A stretch of 45,386 bases of DNA from Candidatus Poribacteria bacterium. GTDB taxonomy: Bacteria > Poribacteria > WGA-4E > WGA-3G. Below, piece after piece: positions 11,349 through 21,784 of the stretch. Below the pieces are notes generated by a model that was not told the DNA's origin, did not search any database, and saw nothing but the letters and a program-made list of their open reading frames with translations. The DNA is taken from NCBI GenBank assembly GCA_009841255.1, contig VXMD01000083.1, positions 196,584 to 241,969 of the forward strand, written 5' to 3'. The first letter of the stretch is position 1; each line of letters starts with the position of its first letter. The position numbers and the translations under genes are program-made.

Positions 11349-12005
11349 TTATTTCTTGAGAATCTGATCGAAACGTTCCAGTACAGCGTCAATTTCCTGC
11401 TTGACCTTCTCAAAATCAGCGTTGAAACGTTCTATCGCAGCATCCGTCTCTTTTTCCGTTTTCTCAAAATCAGCATTGAAACTTTTTATCGCCGCATCCG
11501 CCTCCTGCTTGACTTTTTCAAAGTCAGCCTTGGCGCGTTCTATCGCAGCATCCGTCTCTTCCTTAACCTTCCCGAAGTCAGAATTGGAAGCGGCACCCGT
11601 CTCCTTCCGTACCCTCTCAAGATCAGCATTGAGACCTTTTATGGCGGCATCTATTTCCTTCCGCACCTTCTCGAAGTCACTATTGAAACGCTCTACGGCG
11701 GTATCTGTCCCTTTCTTAACATCTTTGAAGTCACTGTTGAAACGTTTTATGGCGGTATCTGTTTCCTGCTTGACTTTCTTAAAATCAGCATCGAACCGCT
11801 CTATAGCCGCATCCGTTTCCTGCTTTACCTTCTTAAAGTCAGCCTTAGCGCGTTCGATCGCAGCGTCCGTCTCCTGTTTGATTGCTTCGACCTCCTCCTG
11901 AGCTTTCGCGACCTCAGCATCCCTGGATTCCTTTTTGGGATTCCCACATCCGAGTGCCGAGAATAACAAGACAGGTAGACAAAAACAAAGAACTCGCTTA
12001 AACAT
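11349..12005 (-). CDS. Coiled-coil lipoprotein built of 18-residue tandem repeats
   Basis: 218 residues. The N-terminus is a lipoprotein signal (MFKRVLCFCLPVLLF followed by SALGC, Cys about 20), so export and lipid anchoring are expected. The mature part is almost entirely ten tandem copies of an 18-residue amphipathic unit, of the form KQETDAAIERFNADFEKV; one copy (with TGAASNSDF) is 3 residues shorter by an in-frame deletion. At DNA level this is a 54-bp repeat from about 11380 to 11900. The heptad-plus-11-mer spacing suits a long helix or coiled coil. No catalytic residues are visible. Start supported by AAGGAGA 6 nt before ATG; a terminator follows. Unknown function; a spacer or envelope-tethering role is possible, and copy number may vary between strains. 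Confidence 0.8.
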   Translation of the reverse strand: MFKRVLCFCLPVLLFSALGCGNPKKESRDAEVAKAQEEVEAIKQETDAAIERAKADFKKVKQETDAAIERFDADFKKVKQETDTAIKRFNSDFKDVKKGTDTAVERFNSDFEKVRKEIDAAIKGLNADLERVRKETGAASNSDFGKVKEETDAAIERAKADFEKVKQEADAAIKSFNADFEKTEKETDAAIERFNADFEKVKQEIDAVLERFDQILKK

Positions 12006-14604: not shown

Positions 14605-14880
14605 TTACGGGGCATACGCTTTCCCGCGCGTTCGGATCCCTCTGATGATGCATTTACGGTGTTGCTTGTCTATCCTATAGATAATCCTATAACGTCCAAC
14701 ACGATAACGATATAATCCGGCGTACCGTCCGTGCAATTTGGTTATATTAGGTCCAAATAACGGATTGTTCACTAAAGTGTTAAGTGCAGTGTTAACTCGC
14801 CGCTTCATATCAGCATCAAGCCTATCGTAATTAGCAATTGCCTCATCTGTGAATTGGACTTCAAACGTCTCGCTTAACAT
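14605..14880 (-). CDS. RelE/ParE-type toxin
   Basis: 91 residues from ATG 14880. Typical RelE/ParE superfamily features: TFEVQFTDEAIANYDRL at the start, NPLFGPNITKLHG, then GLYRYRVGRYRIIYRID and a C-terminal CIIRGIRTRGKAY. RelE members cleave mRNA on the ribosome and ParE members poison gyrase; which applies is not clear. The reading frame extends 15 codons further up, but those overlap the antitoxin and the internal ATG gives the family's usual start. The gene overlaps the antitoxin gene by 20 nt, so translation is coupled. Confidence 0.85.
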   Translation of the reverse strand: MLSETFEVQFTDEAIANYDRLDADMKRRVNTALNTLVNNPLFGPNITKLHGRYAGLYRYRVGRYRIIYRIDKQHRKCIIRGIRTRGKAYAP

Positions 14881-15091
14881 CAGCCCAACTTTTGAGTCTG
14901 CCGGCCTTTTCATCGGCCTCCGCACGTTCTAAACTTTTCACAATCTCTGCGTCACTTGCCAGTTCGTGTGTTGCATCCCATGCTTCCTTGTCATAAAGAT
15001 AGGTCATATAATCTATAGCAGCTTTGAGTTTTTTCTTTGGGAGTCGCTCGATTAACATCATAGCTTGCTTCTGCAGTTTCGAATACTTCAT
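14861..15091 (-). CDS. Antitoxin of the RelE/ParE pair
   Basis: 76 residues from ATG 15091, chosen because AAGGAG lies 7 nt before it; the upstream extension of the frame crosses the promoter. The C-terminal pattern SDAEIVKSLERAEADEKAGRLKSW is common in antitoxins paired with RelE/ParE toxins and would wrap the toxin; the N-terminus (KLQKQAMMLIERLPKKKLKAAIDY) is the helical, likely operator-binding part. A strong promoter (15135-15163) drives the pair. Confidence 0.8.
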   Translation of the reverse strand: MKYSKLQKQAMMLIERLPKKKLKAAIDYMTYLYDKEAWDATHELASDAEIVKSLERAEADEKAGRLKSWADVKRDV

Positions 15092-15134
15092 TACAGAACT
15101 CCTTAAGGGATAATTTTCTCGGATTTTTGTTAAT

Positions 15135-15163
15135 ATGGTATCAGAAGTCTGAAGCGTTGTCAA
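15135..15163 (-). promoter_or_regulatory. Promoter of the toxin-antitoxin pair
   Basis: TTGACA (15158-15163), a 17-bp spacer, TACCAT (15135-15140) on the minus strand; perfect -35 box, about 45 nt before the antitoxin start. Such operons are usually repressed by the antitoxin or the TA complex at this site. Confidence 0.65.
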
Positions 15164-15226
15164 GTTTGGGGTGCGGTTGGGGGATTTAGTCTTCCGCACC
15201 TACCGTGATTGGAAACAACTTAAAAA

Positions 15227-16681
15227 TTACTCACCTGTATAGAGTTTCCCGAAATAGGGGCGATAGCCTGCAGGTCCAGGGTAGCCGTTCCAGTAGTGGG
15301 CATCAGCAGGGAAAGCGGCCTCGCCACCACTGCGGAGCCACGCCATGAGTACGGGATCGGTGCCGCGGCATTCGATTTCATCAACAGCAGCGGCGTGCAG
15401 TTTAGCAACAACATCGGGATGGTCATTGGCAACGTCGTCTAATTCGCCGAGTCGGACGAGTTTCGAATTTTCAGGTGTCGTGCCGACCTCTAAACTCCAC
15501 TCACGATCAAAAACAGTGAAGAGATTGAGATTCGGATTCTCAGCACTGTTCTCCCACCGCTCAATACTTCCACCTGAGAGTGCAAGCTGCCTTGCGCCGG
15601 CTTCCCCGTTACGTGCAGGTGTTAAGATATCGTGTCCTTCAATACCGTCAGGACGTGCTTCTCCCAAGATATTGAGAATTGTCGGGAAGAAGTCTTGCGG
15701 TTGGACGATGACGTTGCTTCTCCCCGTATCGCCCTCGGGAAGCCGAATAAAGAGCGGGACATGTGTTTCCTGCTGACGGACGGGTTGTCCTTTGCCAAAT
15801 CTACCACGTTCACCGACATTTGTGCCGTGGTCAGCGGTAAAGATGACAGCCGTATTCTTGTCAAGCTCTGTCGATTCAAGGGCATCAAGGAACTGTCCGA
15901 AGCAGTGGTCCATCCATGTCGTTTTAGCGGCGTATTGCGCTTTGATGTGTTGTTTTGCTTCATCTGAGAGTTCCGCATTACCCCGTGCGCCAAGACTGCG
16001 CGGATCGACGCGTCCATCGTAACCCGGACGGGTATCGTATTTTTTCATGAATTCAAGCGGAGCATCCCAAGGTTCGTGTGGATCGAAGCAGTCTATCCAG
16101 AGAAAGAAATTGTCTCGCTTGGCGTTGTCTTTGAGGAATTGTGCCGCGGTGTTGAAAAGTTTTGCGCAGTTCCAATCCTCAGGTTTTTTACGATTTCTGT
16201 TCGCGCGTGCGTAGCTGCGAAGCATGCCTGATTCAGCGGCTTTGTCATCAATACAATCGAAGAGCGGTTGACGTGTCCAATTGTCGGGCCATACCACGGT
16301 ATCGGTGATCCAGTCTCTATCGACCTCTGCCCCGCGAACGAACGTCCACGCGTGGAAGGGCCAGTCGAAGTTATGCCCACCGTTGACGAGATGCGGCGTA
16401 TCGTGAATGAGTTGCGTGGCATAGCCGTTTTCTGCGAGCGTCCACGGCAAAGTTTGGCGTTCATGACGAAGCGGTTTCCACGGGTGGATGGGCGCGCCGT
16501 ATTGTCCGGTGATGACATCGGTCCGATAGGGGATCGTTGGAAAACTGGCACAGAAAGCGTAATCGAATGCTAACGCTTTGGAGGCAAACCGATCGATGTT
16601 CGGTGTCTCTATCCAGTCGTTTCCGTTTGCGCCGATGTAGTCGTAGCGGAGTGTATCAATAACAATATAAACGAGATTCAT
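15227..16681 (-). CDS. Sulfatase-like hydrolase (alkaline phosphatase superfamily) with Thr at the nucleophile position
   Basis: 484 residues from ATG 16681, which directly follows the conserved leader CCGCAAGGTA-ATTAAAAA. The fold markers are clear: N-terminal VYIVIDTLRYDYIG (metal Asp9), TPNIDRFA, AVIFTADHGTNVGERG (metal Asp/His) and the C-terminal domain. The signature loop reads FPTIPYRTDVITG (about 47-59): Thr49 occupies the position where sulfatases carry Cys or Ser for formylglycine. Thr is the nucleophile in the related nucleotide pyrophosphatase/phosphodiesterase branch, so phosphodiester or phosphonate ester cleavage should be considered beside sulfate ester cleavage. No signal peptide is seen, so it is probably cytoplasmic. 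It sits in a cluster of PhyH and Gfo/Idh/MocA genes, consistent with breakdown of a decorated sugar. Confidence 0.85.
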   Translation of the reverse strand: MNLVYIVIDTLRYDYIGANGNDWIETPNIDRFASKALAFDYAFCASFPTIPYRTDVITGQYGAPIHPWKPLRHERQTLPWTLAENGYATQLIHDTPHLVNGGHNFDWPFHAWTFVRGAEVDRDWITDTVVWPDNWTRQPLFDCIDDKAAESGMLRSYARANRNRKKPEDWNCAKLFNTAAQFLKDNAKRDNFFLWIDCFDPHEPWDAPLEFMKKYDTRPGYDGRVDPRSLGARGNAELSDEAKQHIKAQYAAKTTWMDHCFGQFLDALESTELDKNTAVIFTADHGTNVGERGRFGKGQPVRQQETHVPLFIRLPEGDTGRSNVIVQPQDFFPTILNILGEARPDGIEGHDILTPARNGEAGARQLALSGGSIERWENSAENPNLNLFTVFDREWSLEVGTTPENSKLVRLGELDDVANDHPDVVAKLHAAAVDEIECRGTDPVLMAWLRSGGEAAFPADAHYWNGYPGPAGYRPYFGKLYTGE

Positions 16682-16770
16682 CTTTTTAATTATACCTTGC
16701 GGTTCGGTCAGGTTGGTCTGATAAATCAAGCACCTCTCCGTAGAGCCGCCTGCGCCGTTGTTGCAGGCTA
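16682..16770 (-). promoter_or_regulatory. Composite leader: conserved translation leader copy 2 plus hairpin repeats
   Basis: Next to the ATG: CCTGACCGAACCGCAAGG followed by TATAATTAAAAAG (16682-16712). Farther upstream, the text CTACGGAGA and a small hairpin (TGAT-TT-ATCA) are shared with the leader at 18427, and the GCCTGC...GCAGGC palindrome lies at about 16748-16768. It behaves as a block repeated in front of unrelated genes. The remaining intergenic part holds a GCACAA-TCTAACAGA-TTATGTTAC core (16788-16811). Confidence 0.6.
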
Positions 16771-16851: not shown

Positions 16852-17598
16852 TTACCATTTTGGGATTGCGCCGAGTAAGAGTTGCTGCTGCGATGTGCCT
16901 TCCTCACGGAGTTTTGTGACCCGAGGACCGTCAAAGGGTTCACGAGACTTCATCCAGGCGTTCTGATAACACATGAGGCAGACACGCCGACGTTGTGCCG
17001 AATTGTTCGCCGCACCTCGATGCCATGTCCATCCATCGAACATAACCGCCTGCCCCGGGGAGACGAGCACCCGTTTTTCATCCGGCAATTCGACAGGCGT
17101 CGGTGGCGGACGGAAAGGTGCGCGGTGGCTGCCGGGTTGGATAACTGTGGGACCGTTCTCATCGCTGACCTCGTCGAGATAATAGCCGCAGTTAATCTGT
17201 GCAGGGAGACTCCCGTAAGGCGTTCCATTCGGGGCAACGGGCCACGGACCATCGCGATGCCAATGCTGATCAGGCGTTCCGGGTTCGGTAATGCGTGCCG
17301 TCGCGCTGTGGAGTTGGACACACGTGCCTAATATGGCTTCCATCCGCTTGAGAACGGGTGGATTATCTAACAAAAATGCGAACCGCTCATCCTCTTCCAA
17401 CAGTTCACCGATGAATTGGCTTTTATTGTTGCGTTCATAACTTTCATCGAGTGCCTCTCGTAGCGATTCAATCTGTTCCGGCGTTGCGGCATTGTCAACG
17501 ACGAGATAACCCCAATTGAGAAAGAAGTTGACCTCTTGTTGCAGCTGGTGATCCAGTTCAACGTTGAGTGTTGGTGGCACGACGCTTGGATTTGCCAT
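16852..17598 (-). CDS. Phytanoyl-CoA dioxygenase (PhyH) family protein 1
   Basis: 248 residues; Fe(II)/2-oxoglutarate-dependent oxygenase. The iron triad is readable: His114 and Asp116 in QHWHRDGPW, and His193 in GWTWHRGA; Arg203-205 (QRRRVCL) would bind 2-oxoglutarate. Bacterial members hydroxylate diverse small molecules; the substrate is unknown. The gene follows the second PhyH gene by 3 bp, and that gene's 3' end supplies the Shine-Dalgarno sequence GAGGAGGT, so the two are translationally coupled and may act in one pathway. Domain length is normal. Confidence 0.88.
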   Translation of the reverse strand: MANPSVVPPTLNVELDHQLQQEVNFFLNWGYLVVDNAATPEQIESLREALDESYERNNKSQFIGELLEEDERFAFLLDNPPVLKRMEAILGTCVQLHSATARITEPGTPDQHWHRDGPWPVAPNGTPYGSLPAQINCGYYLDEVSDENGPTVIQPGSHRAPFRPPPTPVELPDEKRVLVSPGQAVMFDGWTWHRGAANNSAQRRRVCLMCYQNAWMKSREPFDGPRVTKLREEGTSQQQLLLGAIPKW

Positions 17599-17601
17599 CG
17601 G

Positions 17602-18426
17602 TTATACCTCCTCAATTGCGGTGCGATCGGCGGTTGCCCACTCTTCCCAGCGTTCTTCGTCGGAGTGGAGGAAGCCGGAATTGCATCGGGGTTGGAGTTG
17701 CTCATCCACGCCGAGGAGCCGCATGTGTTGATGATTATTGGCGGCTTTCGCGGTTTCCAATAATTTCTGGGTATGCGGACCCGTGTGATGATCGGTGTGT
17801 TTCAGCCATGTCAGGTTATAATAGATGCTGAAGAAATAGCGTAAGTTCCCAGAGGTATTCGGTGTGCCAGAGTGGATGAGTCCGTTATGTGTGATGACGA
17901 CATCACCTGCCCCCATGTGTACCAGTGTTTCATCCGGATGCGGGACACTCCGTTGTGAATCTTCCATCGTAATCGGCTTTCGATGCGAACCTACAATGAC
18001 ACGAAGGGGTCCATACGCATCCGTCAGATCCTGCAAATAGGATATGGCGTTAATGGCGTTCGGGCGATGATAGGCATCGGTAAAAGGAACGTGTGCCCAG
18101 CGATCACGGTGCCATCCTGAGACCCTGCCTTCTGCTTTTTCCATCTCCATTGATGGAAAAGCAGCGAGCGTGAGGTTATCTAATTGCACAAAGGGACCCA
18201 TCACCTTCTCCACAAATTCGAGAATTGTAGGGTGGGAGACAGCGGGCCACATCAGTTCTGATGCCAATTCAAGCGTATTTCCGAACCATGTTTGCCCGTC
18301 GTTGGCGGCGGAGAGTTCTTGATGTTTCTCGCGCCAACTTTGCATCTGGGGTTCGTCAGAAACCTTCTCAAAGATTGTGAAACCATCGGTTTTATAGGCT
18401 TCAAAGTGTTGTTCTAATGTTGACAT
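17602..18426 (-). CDS. Phytanoyl-CoA dioxygenase (PhyH) family protein 2
   Basis: 274 residues; Fe(II)/2-oxoglutarate dioxygenase with intact HxD...H triad: His106 and Asp108 in GWHRDRW, His185 in GLIHSGTPN, and Arg195 in NLRYFF for 2-oxoglutarate. First gene of a two-gene operon with the PhyH gene 3 bp downstream. The start ATG (18426) directly follows the conserved CCGCAAGG-ATTAAAAA leader. The substrate cannot be deduced; the adjacent oxidoreductases and sulfatase-like enzyme point to catabolism of a modified organic compound. Confidence 0.88.
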   Translation of the reverse strand: MSTLEQHFEAYKTDGFTIFEKVSDEPQMQSWREKHQELSAANDGQTWFGNTLELASELMWPAVSHPTILEFVEKVMGPFVQLDNLTLAAFPSMEMEKAEGRVSGWHRDRWAHVPFTDAYHRPNAINAISYLQDLTDAYGPLRVIVGSHRKPITMEDSQRSVPHPDETLVHMGAGDVVITHNGLIHSGTPNTSGNLRYFFSIYYNLTWLKHTDHHTGPHTQKLLETAKAANNHQHMRLLGVDEQLQPRCNSGFLHSDEERWEEWATADRTAIEEV

Positions 18427-18500
18427 TTTTTAATTTTTCCTTGCGGTTCGGTCAGACGGGTTAGATATCTAACGCGCTTCTCCGTAGATCCACCCTCCGC
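18427..18500 (-). promoter_or_regulatory. Composite leader: conserved translation leader copy 3
   Basis: TCTGACCGAACCGCAAGG then AAAAATTAAAAA touches the ATG (18427-18456). Just upstream is the perfect palindrome GTTAGATATCTAAC (18460-18473), then CTACGGAGAAG. The order palindrome, CTGACCGAACCGCAAGG, A/T-rich tail, ATG is the same as at 16682, although the palindrome sequence differs. Confidence 0.6.
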
Positions 18501-18596
18501 TACGCTTACGGGCTCAGGTTCTGGTTTAATATTTCCAATAGAAAAGAAACATTAAATCCGCCTACGCCTGCTTTGCAGTGCGAATGCAGGCTACCC

Positions 18597-19544
18597 TCAA
18601 CGCAATCCGCTTAGAATTGCCTCGGCAAGTTCCATGGTTTTAACAGCTTCGTCAAGGTTAGCAGCGGGGAACGAAACAGGCGTATCGGACTTGACACAAT
18701 CCAAGAAATACCGATTCTGCTCAACAGTGCCACCCGTGCCTGCTTCGGTCAGTTTGTGTTGTGTGCCATCAGAGAAAACGGTGCCCTGGGAGACGCCTTC
18801 AAGATAAGCAGAGATGTCTCTGCCGTGAATCTCATAGCGTTCAAGGCGAGCATCTGTGGTGTAGTTGGCGATGTGTTGGGCAACACAACCGTTATCGAAC
18901 AGGATCAGTGCGGCGTGAACATCTTTGTAGTCTGAGATGGTCCGCTGGACGACACTATGGACTTCTTGAACGTCAGCTTCAGCGACGGCACGAATTGTAT
19001 CAAGGGCGTGGATAGGCGTCTCCAGAAACATATTGTCCATTAGGTGTTCTGGAAATCTGCCGCCTTGTGCCAATCGGGTGATACTCTTGTGAAACTCACC
19101 GACGATTTGTGTCACGGGACCGCGTGCGGTAACGTGCCGTTTCGCCTCAACGATGATTGGGTGAAAACGACGGTTCCAGCCTACCATCCCTTTCGCGCCT
19201 GTTCGTTCCGCTGCACTCCGTAAAGCGACCGTTTCTGCGACGCTCATGCCCGGCGGTTTTTCCAAAAGCGTATGCACCCCGCGTTCAAAACAGGGGAGTG
19301 CCGCCTCACCGTTGAGGTGTGCGGGTGTCGCGACGAAAACGGCGTCTAAGGTTTCATGGTCCAACAACGCCTCAATACGCTCGTACTTTGCTGAGACATT
19401 GAACTGGTCCGCAGCGGTGTCGCGCGCTGCTTCGACAGGATCGCAGACGGCGACAAGGTCAGTATCGTCAAATTCCGAAAGGATTCTCATGTGTCCGCGG
19501 CCCCTACCGCCGCATCCGATGACAGCAACTCGTAGTTTCGACAT
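18597..19544 (-). CDS. Gfo/Idh/MocA family oxidoreductase
   Basis: 315 residues from the second of two adjacent ATGs, which gives a better distance (6 nt) from AAGGAG. Dinucleotide motif VIGCGGRGRGH at the N-terminus and LEKPPGMSV in the middle (the EKP signature). NAD(P)-dependent dehydrogenase of sugars or cyclitols; substrate unknown. Its end is 170 bp from the PhyH operon start, with a repeat-type leader between, so it is probably a separate transcript. Confidence 0.88.
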   Translation of the reverse strand: MSKLRVAVIGCGGRGRGHMRILSEFDDTDLVAVCDPVEAARDTAADQFNVSAKYERIEALLDHETLDAVFVATPAHLNGEAALPCFERGVHTLLEKPPGMSVAETVALRSAAERTGAKGMVGWNRRFHPIIVEAKRHVTARGPVTQIVGEFHKSITRLAQGGRFPEHLMDNMFLETPIHALDTIRAVAEADVQEVHSVVQRTISDYKDVHAALILFDNGCVAQHIANYTTDARLERYEIHGRDISAYLEGVSQGTVFSDGTQHKLTEAGTGGTVEQNRYFLDCVKSDTPVSFPAANLDEAVKTMELAEAILSGLR

Positions 19545-19683
19545 CATTTTCTCCTTCTAATAGTTTTCGGTTCGCCTGCTACGCAGGCTTTCGGTTACCA
19601 GTTATCAGTTAAAGAGATACTTGTGGAATTCAGGCAACACGCAACCGCCACACGCGTTAACCCAAGACCGAAAACCTTTCTGA

Positions 19684-20475
19684 TTACCGTCGGATGTGCG
19701 GTGCCTCCATGACTTCTCGCTGCTCGGGGGACATATCCTCAATGTAATCGGGATACGTAACCTCGTGTGCCCCCATACCATAAGACTGAAATCCAGGACT
19801 GAACTTGTAAAGCAGGGCGCGTCGTTGATGGCTGCCTTTCCACGGAAGCGTCCCGTGTGTCAAAGTTTCGGTGAAAATCACAGCATCACCAGCCTTGGCA
19901 TTGACTTCAAGCACCTGATTTTGATATTGCTCGTACCGTTTCATGCTGCTCGGACACGGAAGATTCGCCTTATGACTCCCCGGGACGATTGCCAACCCCC
20001 CATCGCCGGGTCCCTCGTCAGCGAGCATGTATTCAACAACCGTCAAACCTGTGTAGATGCGTCCGTATTTGAAGAAGTAGGCTTCGGAGAAATTCGGACG
20101 TTCGATCCCGCCACCGTGTAAAGTCCCGCCTTCGGTGCCTTTCTCCATAGCGATTAAGCCCGGACCGTGATCCAGTCGATATTGTTTCCCTAAAACCTCT
20201 TCAAGGCACGGTTTAACCTTGGGGTGAACGAGCAAATTTCGGAACGCTTCACACCAAGGTTTCTCCCAGGCGAGCATGCCCCCCATATCCATGCGGTGCG
20301 CCGTGCCAGCGAGTGCCGCTGAACCGCCTGATAGAGAGGTATCACGTTCCTTAAGTCCTTCAATGTGATGGTCGATGGCAGCGTTGCACTCGGTGACCTC
20401 TTCTGCTGTCAAAGCGTTTTCGACGATGAGGTATCCAGTCAAATCGAATAGGTACTTTTGATCTTCGTTCATCAT
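19684..20475 (-). CDS. Phytanoyl-CoA dioxygenase family protein 3, HxG variant
   Basis: 263 residues from ATG 20475 (CAGGAG just upstream; the frame extends 8 codons further but without a ribosome site). PhyH fold features include LDHGPGLIAMEKGTEGG, the GPGDGGLAIVPGSHKANLPCP segment and the second iron ligand His207 in ETLTHGTLPW with Arg218/219. The first iron motif reads LHGGGIERP: His120 is followed by Gly at the position that should be Asp. In 2-oxoglutarate halogenases of this superfamily Asp is replaced by Ala or Gly so that chloride can bind iron. The change may equally mark a subfamily with another ligand. Substrate unknown. Confidence 0.83.
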   Translation of the reverse strand: MMNEDQKYLFDLTGYLIVENALTAEEVTECNAAIDHHIEGLKERDTSLSGGSAALAGTAHRMDMGGMLAWEKPWCEAFRNLLVHPKVKPCLEEVLGKQYRLDHGPGLIAMEKGTEGGTLHGGGIERPNFSEAYFFKYGRIYTGLTVVEYMLADEGPGDGGLAIVPGSHKANLPCPSSMKRYEQYQNQVLEVNAKAGDAVIFTETLTHGTLPWKGSHQRRALLYKFSPGFQSYGMGAHEVTYPDYIEDMSPEQREVMEAPHIRR

Positions 20476-20556
20476 TAGCTCTCCTGTTACGGCACACACC
20501 GTGTGCCTACTACTTTTCTATCTATTTTCAAATTATAGGTATACCTGTTCGTAGTA

Positions 20557-20572
20557 GGGCAATTCATTGCCC
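20557..20572. repeat. Dispersed GGGC...GCCC hairpin
   Basis: GGGCAAT-TC-ATTGCCC preceded by GTAGTA, in the 160-bp gap between PhyH 3 and the next oxidoreductase. Member of the family described at 2845. Confidence 0.5.
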
Positions 20573-20636
20573 GTTGCAGTGTGAAATGAAGTACGCCACA
20601 AATAGCCTCAAATTTTAGATTGAACAGATCACTACT

Positions 20637-21698
20637 TCAACCTGTTGCTTCCGTGACACTCTGCGGTCTACCGGTTGCATCCCCTCCGAGCCACCGATAG
20701 GGACGTGGATAGAGTGCTAAAGATCTGTCCTCAAGCGGGAGTCTGACGGGTGTGCTATTTCGGGTTGCGGAGAGTTTCGCAGCAATGGCAACCTCCAACG
20801 CCTGTCGGAGATCCGCCCCCGTAATCCACGGGTGCCCGTTGCCATCAACAGCCGCTAAGAAGGAGCGGATGGAGCCTGTCAGGTAACTGAATTCATTCCA
20901 CGGATACGGACTGTAGTTAGGATCAATTCGGACGCGAGTGCCTTGCGAGTCATAGCCTTTGAAAATTTCAGGTGGATTCCAATCCCATCGGACGAGGTAT
21001 TCGTCTGTCCAAACATCCACGCCACGGCAAGATGTTGGTGTTCCGAAGACACTGCATTCCAGCCCATTCGTCAGATGAAAGCGTCCGTTGATAATTAGAC
21101 CCTCGTCGGTCTTTGCGTTTAACGCTTCAGGCGGCGTTCCCCACGCGATGACTTCCTCGACCTCAGCGTTGGCGAACAGACGTAACACCGAGATGTGTTG
21201 GCATCCACCCCCAGAGATCTCGCCTCCGAATCCGTGAACACTCACACCTCTGATGCGCCCAAATTCACCGCTGTGGAGCCGAGATGCCGCCTCTTGAACC
21301 TCATTCATTGCCCGCTGCAGGTTGCCCCCCGCGAACACGACACCGCGCTCGGCACATATATCAACCATCGCATCGGCATCTTGTAGACACGCCGCAATTG
21401 GCTTCTCCGTAGAGATCCCTTTCACACCGGCTTCGGCACAGGCAATCACCGTCTCCTTCATATATTTCGTGGGCGTGACAACCACAGCGACGTCCGGCAC
21501 AATGTCCCGCAACAGGGCGTCTACGTCTGGATACAGTGCCGCAACGTCAAAGCGGCCCCCGAGAACCTCACGCCGTTGTGCATTCGCATCAACAATCGCG
21601 ACAATCTCTGTGTCGGGATATGTAGTGTATGCCTCTGCATAGTTCTGCCCCATCCGTCCACACCCGATAACGGCTACGCGATATTTGGTGCTGCTCAT
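20637..21698 (-). CDS. Gfo/Idh/MocA family oxidoreductase
   Basis: 353 residues from ATG 21698, which has GGAGG 8 nt upstream; a TTG two codons earlier is less likely. VAVIGCGRMGQNYAEAY is the nucleotide-binding loop and STEKPIAACLQDAD the EKP signature. The C-terminal half is of the GFO_IDH_MocA_C type. Third paralogue in the window, last gene of the minus-strand block, next to a divergent plus-strand PLP decarboxylase gene. Sugar or cyclitol dehydrogenase by family; substrate not determined. Confidence 0.88.
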   Translation of the reverse strand: MSSTKYRVAVIGCGRMGQNYAEAYTTYPDTEIVAIVDANAQRREVLGGRFDVAALYPDVDALLRDIVPDVAVVVTPTKYMKETVIACAEAGVKGISTEKPIAACLQDADAMVDICAERGVVFAGGNLQRAMNEVQEAASRLHSGEFGRIRGVSVHGFGGEISGGGCQHISVLRLFANAEVEEVIAWGTPPEALNAKTDEGLIINGRFHLTNGLECSVFGTPTSCRGVDVWTDEYLVRWDWNPPEIFKGYDSQGTRVRIDPNYSPYPWNEFSYLTGSIRSFLAAVDGNGHPWITGADLRQALEVAIAAKLSATRNSTPVRLPLEDRSLALYPRPYRWLGGDATGRPQSVTEATG

Positions 21699-21784
21699 TT
21701 TCAAATCCTCCGATTTTGCATGTTAACAAGGTTACAAAAGTGTGTCAAGGAAAAAGTGGTGCTGCACACTCTCCGGATTTCTAT

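Follow-up and report, generated by a model that had tools for sequence, protein, structure and literature searches.

A sulfatase-fold protein of Candidatus Poribacteria with a conserved threonine at the formylglycine position, from a subfamily that holds both Cys and Thr members

The window, that is the whole stretch of 45,386 nucleotides of Candidatus Poribacteria DNA analysed here, contains a sulfatase-like gene whose product carries a threonine, strictly conserved among orthologues, at the position of the Cys from which sulfatases derive formylglycine (FGly). As judged from profiles and alignments, this gene is a member of a bounded sulfatase-fold subfamily, and not of the NPP branch. With moderate confidence, we propose that the protein would be an active sulfatase-fold enzyme of the alkaline phosphatase superfamily, which would use an unmodified, metal-activated Thr49 as nucleophile and have a phospho-type or broad specificity.

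The coding sequence (15227..16681, minus strand; 484 amino acids and a stop codon) begins with an ATG at 16681, from which the orthologues align, and the ORF list starts the same gene at an upstream TTG at 16729. The nucleophile loop FPTIPYRTDVITG (residues 47-59; 16505..16543, minus strand) shows a T-x-P-x-R frame instead of the [CS]-x-P-x-R of FGly sulfatases (S1). Thr49 is read directly from the ACG codon at 16535..16537 (minus strand), and alignments with sulfatases placed it opposite the FGly Cys, which bears out the sequence-only reading that Thr stands where FGly needs Cys or Ser. That reading would have been overturned by another Cys or Ser at the nucleophile position, and none was found in an orthologue alignment of 75 rows (the query and 74 ORFs of at least 250 bits): Thr was present at position 49 in 73/73 rows reaching the column, the Cys44 column was variable (56 Cys, 12 Ala, 3 Ser and 2 Leu, n = 73), and Ser46 is invariant but lies three residues ahead of the motif position. 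The window gene occurs twice in this alignment (query and L075), leaving 71 other loci; two fragments (L048, L070) do not reach the Thr49 column and a 51-residue piece (L073) is outside the count. Invariant residues among the orthologue rows were S46, P48, T49, I50, P51, R53 and D55 in the loop, together with D9, D94, H97, D197, H202, E203, D284 and H285. Even orthologues with as little as 37% identity retained the Thr loop. Their records were labelled Poribacteria, Latescibacterota, Gemmatimonadota, Zipacnadia, Phycisphaerae and Kiritimatiellota, the closest one (96% identity) being labelled Candidatus Poribacteria. This conservation ruled out a sequencing slip or a decayed gene. In a same-genus relative, the orthologue (G003:C77:18177-19403) is broken by TGA and TAG after about 399 residues.

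The protein matched PF00884 (Sulfatase) with 146.5 bits over residues 2-340. All 22 NCBIfam models listed scored below their cut-offs, the YejM, EptA and LtaS models giving 27.7, 20.5 and 16.4 bits for cut-offs of 825, 660 and 970, respectively. An AlphaFold2 model built from 22 sequences had a mean pLDDT of 78.4 and a pTM of 0.85, with a weak active-site loop (block means of 69, 55 and 52 for residues 41-70). Its PDB fold matches were mostly sulfatases among the 50 listed, headed by 8di0 (Z 28.2, rmsd 3.1, 352 aligned), and YejM (6vat) and LtaP (4uop) also appeared in that list, at Z 25.9. By sequence profile, the nearest solved proteins were SpAS2 (4upl) and BT1918 (7oz8), closely followed by phosphonate monoester hydrolases; the DPHEP mark described below was present in none of the five profile alignments to solved proteins that were shown. 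Since the catalytic domain starts at the very beginning of the sequence, the protein is probably cytoplasmic.

Most residues of the putative metal site are conserved. D9-T10 (16652..16657, minus strand) would provide the first metal ligand, by comparison with AtsA and MCR-1 (PMC5066984, PMC5216409), T10 occupying a position that is usually Asp, Gln or Glu in sulfatases. D284-H285 (15827..15832, minus strand), likely metal ligands judging from relatives, were found in 84/84 subfamily rows. K297 (15791..15793, minus strand), aligned with the active-site Lys375 of AtsA, was Lys in 83 of the 84 and matched a Lys in 39/39 Cys sulfatases of the genome. When only Thr rows were considered, D9 was present in 71/71 rows with a letter, D284 and H285 in 72/72 and K297 in 71/72. 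With respect to the AtsA metal ligands Asp13, Asp14, Asp317 and Asn318, D9 and D284 are kept, Thr10 replaces Asp14 and H285 replaces Asn318; in S1, Asp14 is conserved at 76%, Asn318 at 61% and Lys113 of the GK-x-H motif at 94% (PMC5066984). The earlier statement that the metal-binding residues are kept is therefore correct for D9, D284 and H285, and fails for the second Asp of the calcium site, which is Asp14 in AtsA numbering (PMC5066984) and Thr10 here.

The surroundings of the site depart further from those of FGly sulfatases. D94-T95-P96-H97 (16391..16402, minus strand) stands where these have G-K-x-H. H97 aligns with the sulfatase general base His115 across a one-residue gap placed differently between alignments, and D94 falls on Gly112 or Lys113 depending on this gap. 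D94 was found in 84/84 subfamily rows and H97 in 71/84, with no Lys at positions 92-96 in any of the 84. Two further marks define the subfamily. One is RGxExD, here RGAEVD (R116-D121; 16319..16336, minus strand), with G117 in 83/84 rows, E119 in 72/84 and D121 in 81/84. The other, here DCFDPHEP (D197-P204; 16070..16093, minus strand), includes the conserved active-site His, H202; the subfamily has Asp or Glu at 197, and H202 and E203 in 84/84 rows. Among the 39 Cys sulfatases of the same genome, an acid was found at 197 in none and Glu at 203 in four, so that an acid-rich site characterises the subfamily irrespective of the nucleophile.

A profile built from both Cys and Thr kinds (alignment A2) was used to delimit this subfamily. 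It matched 228 of 1092 distinct ORFs of at least 250 amino acids, of which 153 scored at least 329 bits and the other 75 at most 230, so that the boundary is sharp. After clustering at 85%, the subfamily comprised 84 rows (72 Thr, 12 Cys and no Ser). Plasmid records with a match numbered 451; 18 were examined among the 40 matches listed and 17 of them hold a subfamily member (16 Cys and one Thr, L159), the remaining one (L163) being outside the subfamily. Because plasmid sampling is biased, the Cys:Thr ratio obtained here is not a natural frequency. The plasmid matches show PC-x-P-x-R in place of PT-x-P-x-R, with the [DE]-x-F-D-x-H-E-P and D-x-x-H marks, and eight further plasmid records, all Cys, brought the Cys rows to 20. 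Single genomes encode both kinds, as in G050 (L259 Cys, L260 Thr), G067 (L187, L242), G070 (L189, L228) and G068 (L190, L234). In a search of the phylum, 83 of 84 genomes matched the subfamily profile at E 1e-60 or better, a threshold that may admit a few outsiders.

Since the missing Lys and the acidic marks are common to the Cys members, they do not result from the change to Thr. Other differences follow the nucleophile. The 20 Cys rows (12 and 8) all have CxPxR, His97 and also His95, and no change of His97 or Pro51; among the 72 Thr rows, position 95 is Thr or Val in 65 and His in two, His97 is lost in 13, Pro51 is replaced by Gln in five and Arg53 is lost in one. In arylsulfatases, hemiacetal opening at FGly is attributed to the GK-x-H His as the proposed base, and the formation of FGly is guided by [CS]-x-P-x-R (PMC5066984, PMC5488252). 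With Thr as nucleophile, neither would be required. These contrasts are counts over related rows with 20 Cys rows only, and are suggestive of Thr members having relaxed what FGly chemistry needs (His97, Pro51). Cys and Thr rows were distinct at positions 64, 100 and 195 too, in keeping with Cys rows that come close to forming a single clade.

Trees were calculated without the nucleophile columns and without NPP rows. Subfamily ORFs covering under about 330 residues were dropped and the others clustered at 72%, giving 68 rows, and the outgroup was reduced from 42 to 27 by clustering and score, the Thr rows L111 and L134 being kept on purpose (quick tree). For two careful trees, the outgroup was cut by a further 14 rows (long branches, near relatives and both Thr rows), which left 13 Cys sulfatases. 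Near-copies and one long branch were taken out of the 68 subfamily rows as well, 13 rows for the tree with 11 Cys rows and 14 for that with 19. The subfamily formed one clade against the 13 Cys sulfatases (support 100/100, careful trees) and against the 27 outgroup rows (support 99, quick tree). Rooted on the outgroup, whose branches are long, all three trees nested the Cys rows among Thr rows. Forcing Thr into one clade cost 24.1 log-likelihood units with 11 Cys rows (p-AU 0.036, rejected) and 22.3 with 19 (p-AU 0.065, not rejected at 0.05), and Cys as one clade was not rejected (p 0.32 with 11 Cys rows and 0.44 with 19); the constrained groups were named after the first tree had been seen. 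At least one Cys/Thr exchange, in either direction, is needed inside the subfamily. A bolder scenario, which we regard as doubtful, is that the nucleophile switched repeatedly between Cys and Thr, with a reversion of Thr to the FGly motif among the changes, in a fixed acid-rich site (D94, D/E197, E203) whose acids may hold a second metal that would make the nucleophiles interchangeable.

The protein shares features with several known systems and differs from each of them in others. Like FGly sulfatases (SulfAtlas S1), it has the fold, the PF00884 profile, D9, R53, H202, D284, K297 and the x-P-x-R frame, and Cys relatives sit in its own subfamily; it departs from them by its Thr in place of Cys/Ser, by lacking the Lys of the GKxH motif, by the acids found at 94, 197 and 203, and by Thr10 for the second Asp. 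The sulfatase Lys is also absent from the phosphonate monoester hydrolases/phosphodiesterases of S1_0 (4upk, 2vqr, 2w8s), Lys113 being Tyr in phosphonate monoester hydrolases (PMC5488252). S1_0 enzymes have a Tyr/Thr or Tyr/Asp pair where sulfatases have their Lys and His; here the Lys is absent and D94/T95 are present, with an unsure residue-to-residue match. Profile similarity to S1_0 is nearly as high as to sulfatases, but S1_0 enzymes use FGly from Cys where Thr49 stands here. EptA/MCR, LtaS and YejM have a Thr nucleophile with acid, Asp and His ligand kinds, to which D9, T49, D284 and H285 correspond by alignment (PMC5216409, PMC7576196). MCR-1 binds Zn1 through Glu246, Thr285, Asp465 and His466, Thr285 being the likely nucleophile (PMC5216409), and YejM is a Mg-dependent phosphatase with a conserved Thr302, of which the T302A mutant loses about 70% of activity (PMC7576196). 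The window protein differs from them by NCBIfam scores far under cut-off, by its sulfatase-type T-x-P-x-R frame and by the lack of a membrane domain before the catalytic domain, the PF00884 match starting at residue 2. Proteins of the PF00884 seed also have Thr at the FGly position, the example given showing TXNXE instead of TxPxR (Barbeyron et al. 2016, PMC5066984).

From these comparisons, a mechanism can be proposed. One divalent metal, held by D9, D284, H285 and Thr49 with the ligand kinds of MCR-1 Zn1, would activate the Thr hydroxyl. The Thr49 alkoxide would then attack the phosphorus or sulfur of the ester, the leaving group would depart with the help of H202 and K297, and water or an acceptor would open the resulting Thr ester, without passing through an FGly hemiacetal. 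Thr49 is not expected to yield FGly because oxidation of Thr would give a ketone (PMC5066984). That a plain hydroxyl can serve in this fold is indicated by FGly-to-Ser replacements in five arylsulfatases and four phosphonate monoester hydrolases, which lost on average about tenfold in kcat/KM (PMC5488252). Sulfate and phosphate esters were affected alike, so that the substrate is not predictable from the nucleophile alone. The substrate is probably a small ester from sugar or sugar-acid breakdown. We slightly favour a phosphodiester- or phosphonate-type ester over a sulfate, as the Lys113 equivalent is absent and a Thr sulfate ester would be hard to release; this preference is the weakest link of the proposal.

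Conversely, the protein might be a true sulfatase that takes sulfate off a small sugar or sugar acid by means of Thr instead of FGly, activated water opening the Thr sulfate. The fold and profile are those of sulfatases, Cys members of the subfamily have an intact FGly motif, and a gene for a formylglycine-generating enzyme (FGE) is found near 2 of 10 annotated Cys loci (L167, L295), the ten loci being those with a flank of some 3 kb or longer to one side or both. The sole annotated Thr locus, L159, has no FGE gene nearby. Ser variants of arylsulfatases also keep about one tenth of their efficiency on sulfates (PMC5488252). Against this, the sulfatase Lys113 is missing, and the open-licence literature searched, as far as its accessible text goes, holds no demonstrated Thr sulfatase. 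The release of a Thr sulfate ester is, moreover, expected to be slow. We view a Thr sulfatase as possible, though on the unlikely side.

The gene neighbourhood fits both types of substrate. Upstream lie two PhyH-family dioxygenase genes (PF05721; 16852..17598 and 17602..18426, minus strand), both kept in 45/74 loci, and downstream a Gfo/Idh/MocA oxidoreductase gene (PF01408; 13496..14545, minus strand), kept in 39/74 loci at 82% identity or more, many loci ending at contig ends. In distant loci, neighbours included PhyH, alginate lyase, a mandelate-racemase-type gene, a rhamnosidase-type domain and sialate esterase, as well as an oligopeptide transporter, thymidylate kinase and proteasome genes, and a GDPD phosphodiesterase in L061. 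Cys members are accompanied by sugar ABC or tripartite transporters, LysR regulators and, in L296, a mandelate racemase. Carbohydrate-type neighbours are thus common to Cys and Thr members, as exemplified by the mandelate-racemase-type genes of L296 and L054, a further point for a sulfatase activity. The four paralogues of the genome had no common neighbourhood theme, with one PhyH gene, in L290. Overall, the neighbours point to sugar or sugar-acid breakdown and do not tell phosphate from sulfate, since they fit sulfated sugars as well.

Other features were observed around the gene. A row of three PhyH dioxygenases and two Gfo/Idh oxidoreductases lies upstream (16852-21704, minus strand) and is kept in many Poribacteria loci. 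Between the sulfatase-like and Gfo/Idh genes (14605-15199, minus strand), a ParE-like toxin gene (PF05016) overlaps a 112-amino-acid ORF with no Pfam match; this looks like a toxin-antitoxin pair, and it comes and goes (toxin match in 10/74 loci, partner match in 21/74). A lipoprotein-like ORF of 218 amino acids made of degenerate repeats of the kind AIERFNADFEKVKQETD is found at 11349-12005 (minus strand).

Sulfatase relatives may plausibly become inactive by losing the modified residue, and the protein could accordingly be a pseudoenzyme, a sulfatase relative deprived of FGly that binds without cleaving. This is improbable: Thr is invariant and shows no drift, and with D9, D284, H285 and K297 retained, along with H202, the window protein looks active rather than decayed.

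Membership of a Thr phosphodiesterase branch, if NPP was meant in the sequence-only reading, did not hold. Descent from this NPP/type I phosphodiesterase branch with drift toward sulfatases is very improbable, in spite of the Thr nucleophile of most ENPPs (PMC11677397) and a PF01663 (Phosphodiest) score of 31.8 bits for a cut-off of 23, for PF00884 far outscores PF01663, the latter match is uninformative because scores near or above its cut-off are also reached by many of the genome's Cys sulfatases, the subfamily includes CxPxR members and is placed with the sulfatase fold by trees holding no NPP rows, and NPP chains are absent among the 50 fold matches listed, which is not proof against NPP. 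NPP enzymes have two zinc ions, the second site being formed by Asp and two His.

Naming the window protein a sulfatase is unsafe, as the sequence-only reading had suspected, given its strictly conserved Thr. This concern extends to the genome, in which 52 aligned hits gave 39 Cys, 12 Thr and one His (L156, below the Pfam cut-off) at this position. Five of the 12 Thr proteins belong to the subfamily, four are other PF00884 proteins and three are NPP-like (L135, L137, L139). Common to the subfamily members, namely the window gene and L076-L079, are PT-x-x-x-R, H97 with an Asp at 94, and D-x-F-[DT]-P-H-E. The four others (L111, L134, L144, L153) have Thr at the FGly position and no motif Arg (TTSAY, THPAH and TRPSH loops). 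With 19 PF03781 (FGE-type) matches in the genome, its Cys sulfatases can presumably be matured.

Thr in PF00884 proteins is not in itself a novelty: besides the four found here, 30 of 59 sequences of the Pfam seed have it at the FGly position, and a warning against the sulfatase label was given with this count (Barbeyron et al. 2016, PMC5066984). No account of a subfamily that combines CxPxR with TxPxR members was found in the accessible part of the open-licence literature.

The use of sulfated polysaccharides by sponge symbionts is deduced from the number of their sulfatases, an interpretation on which the 12 Thr proteins among 52 aligned hits of this genome have a bearing. These sulfatases are commonly held to owe their activity to FGly. 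A small subfamily in which the FGly motif and Thr occur side by side, at times in one genome, is a natural experiment on the purpose of FGly and on the conversion between sulfatase and phosphodiesterase, and since relatives of the window protein still carry Cys, the swap of nucleophile can be tested.
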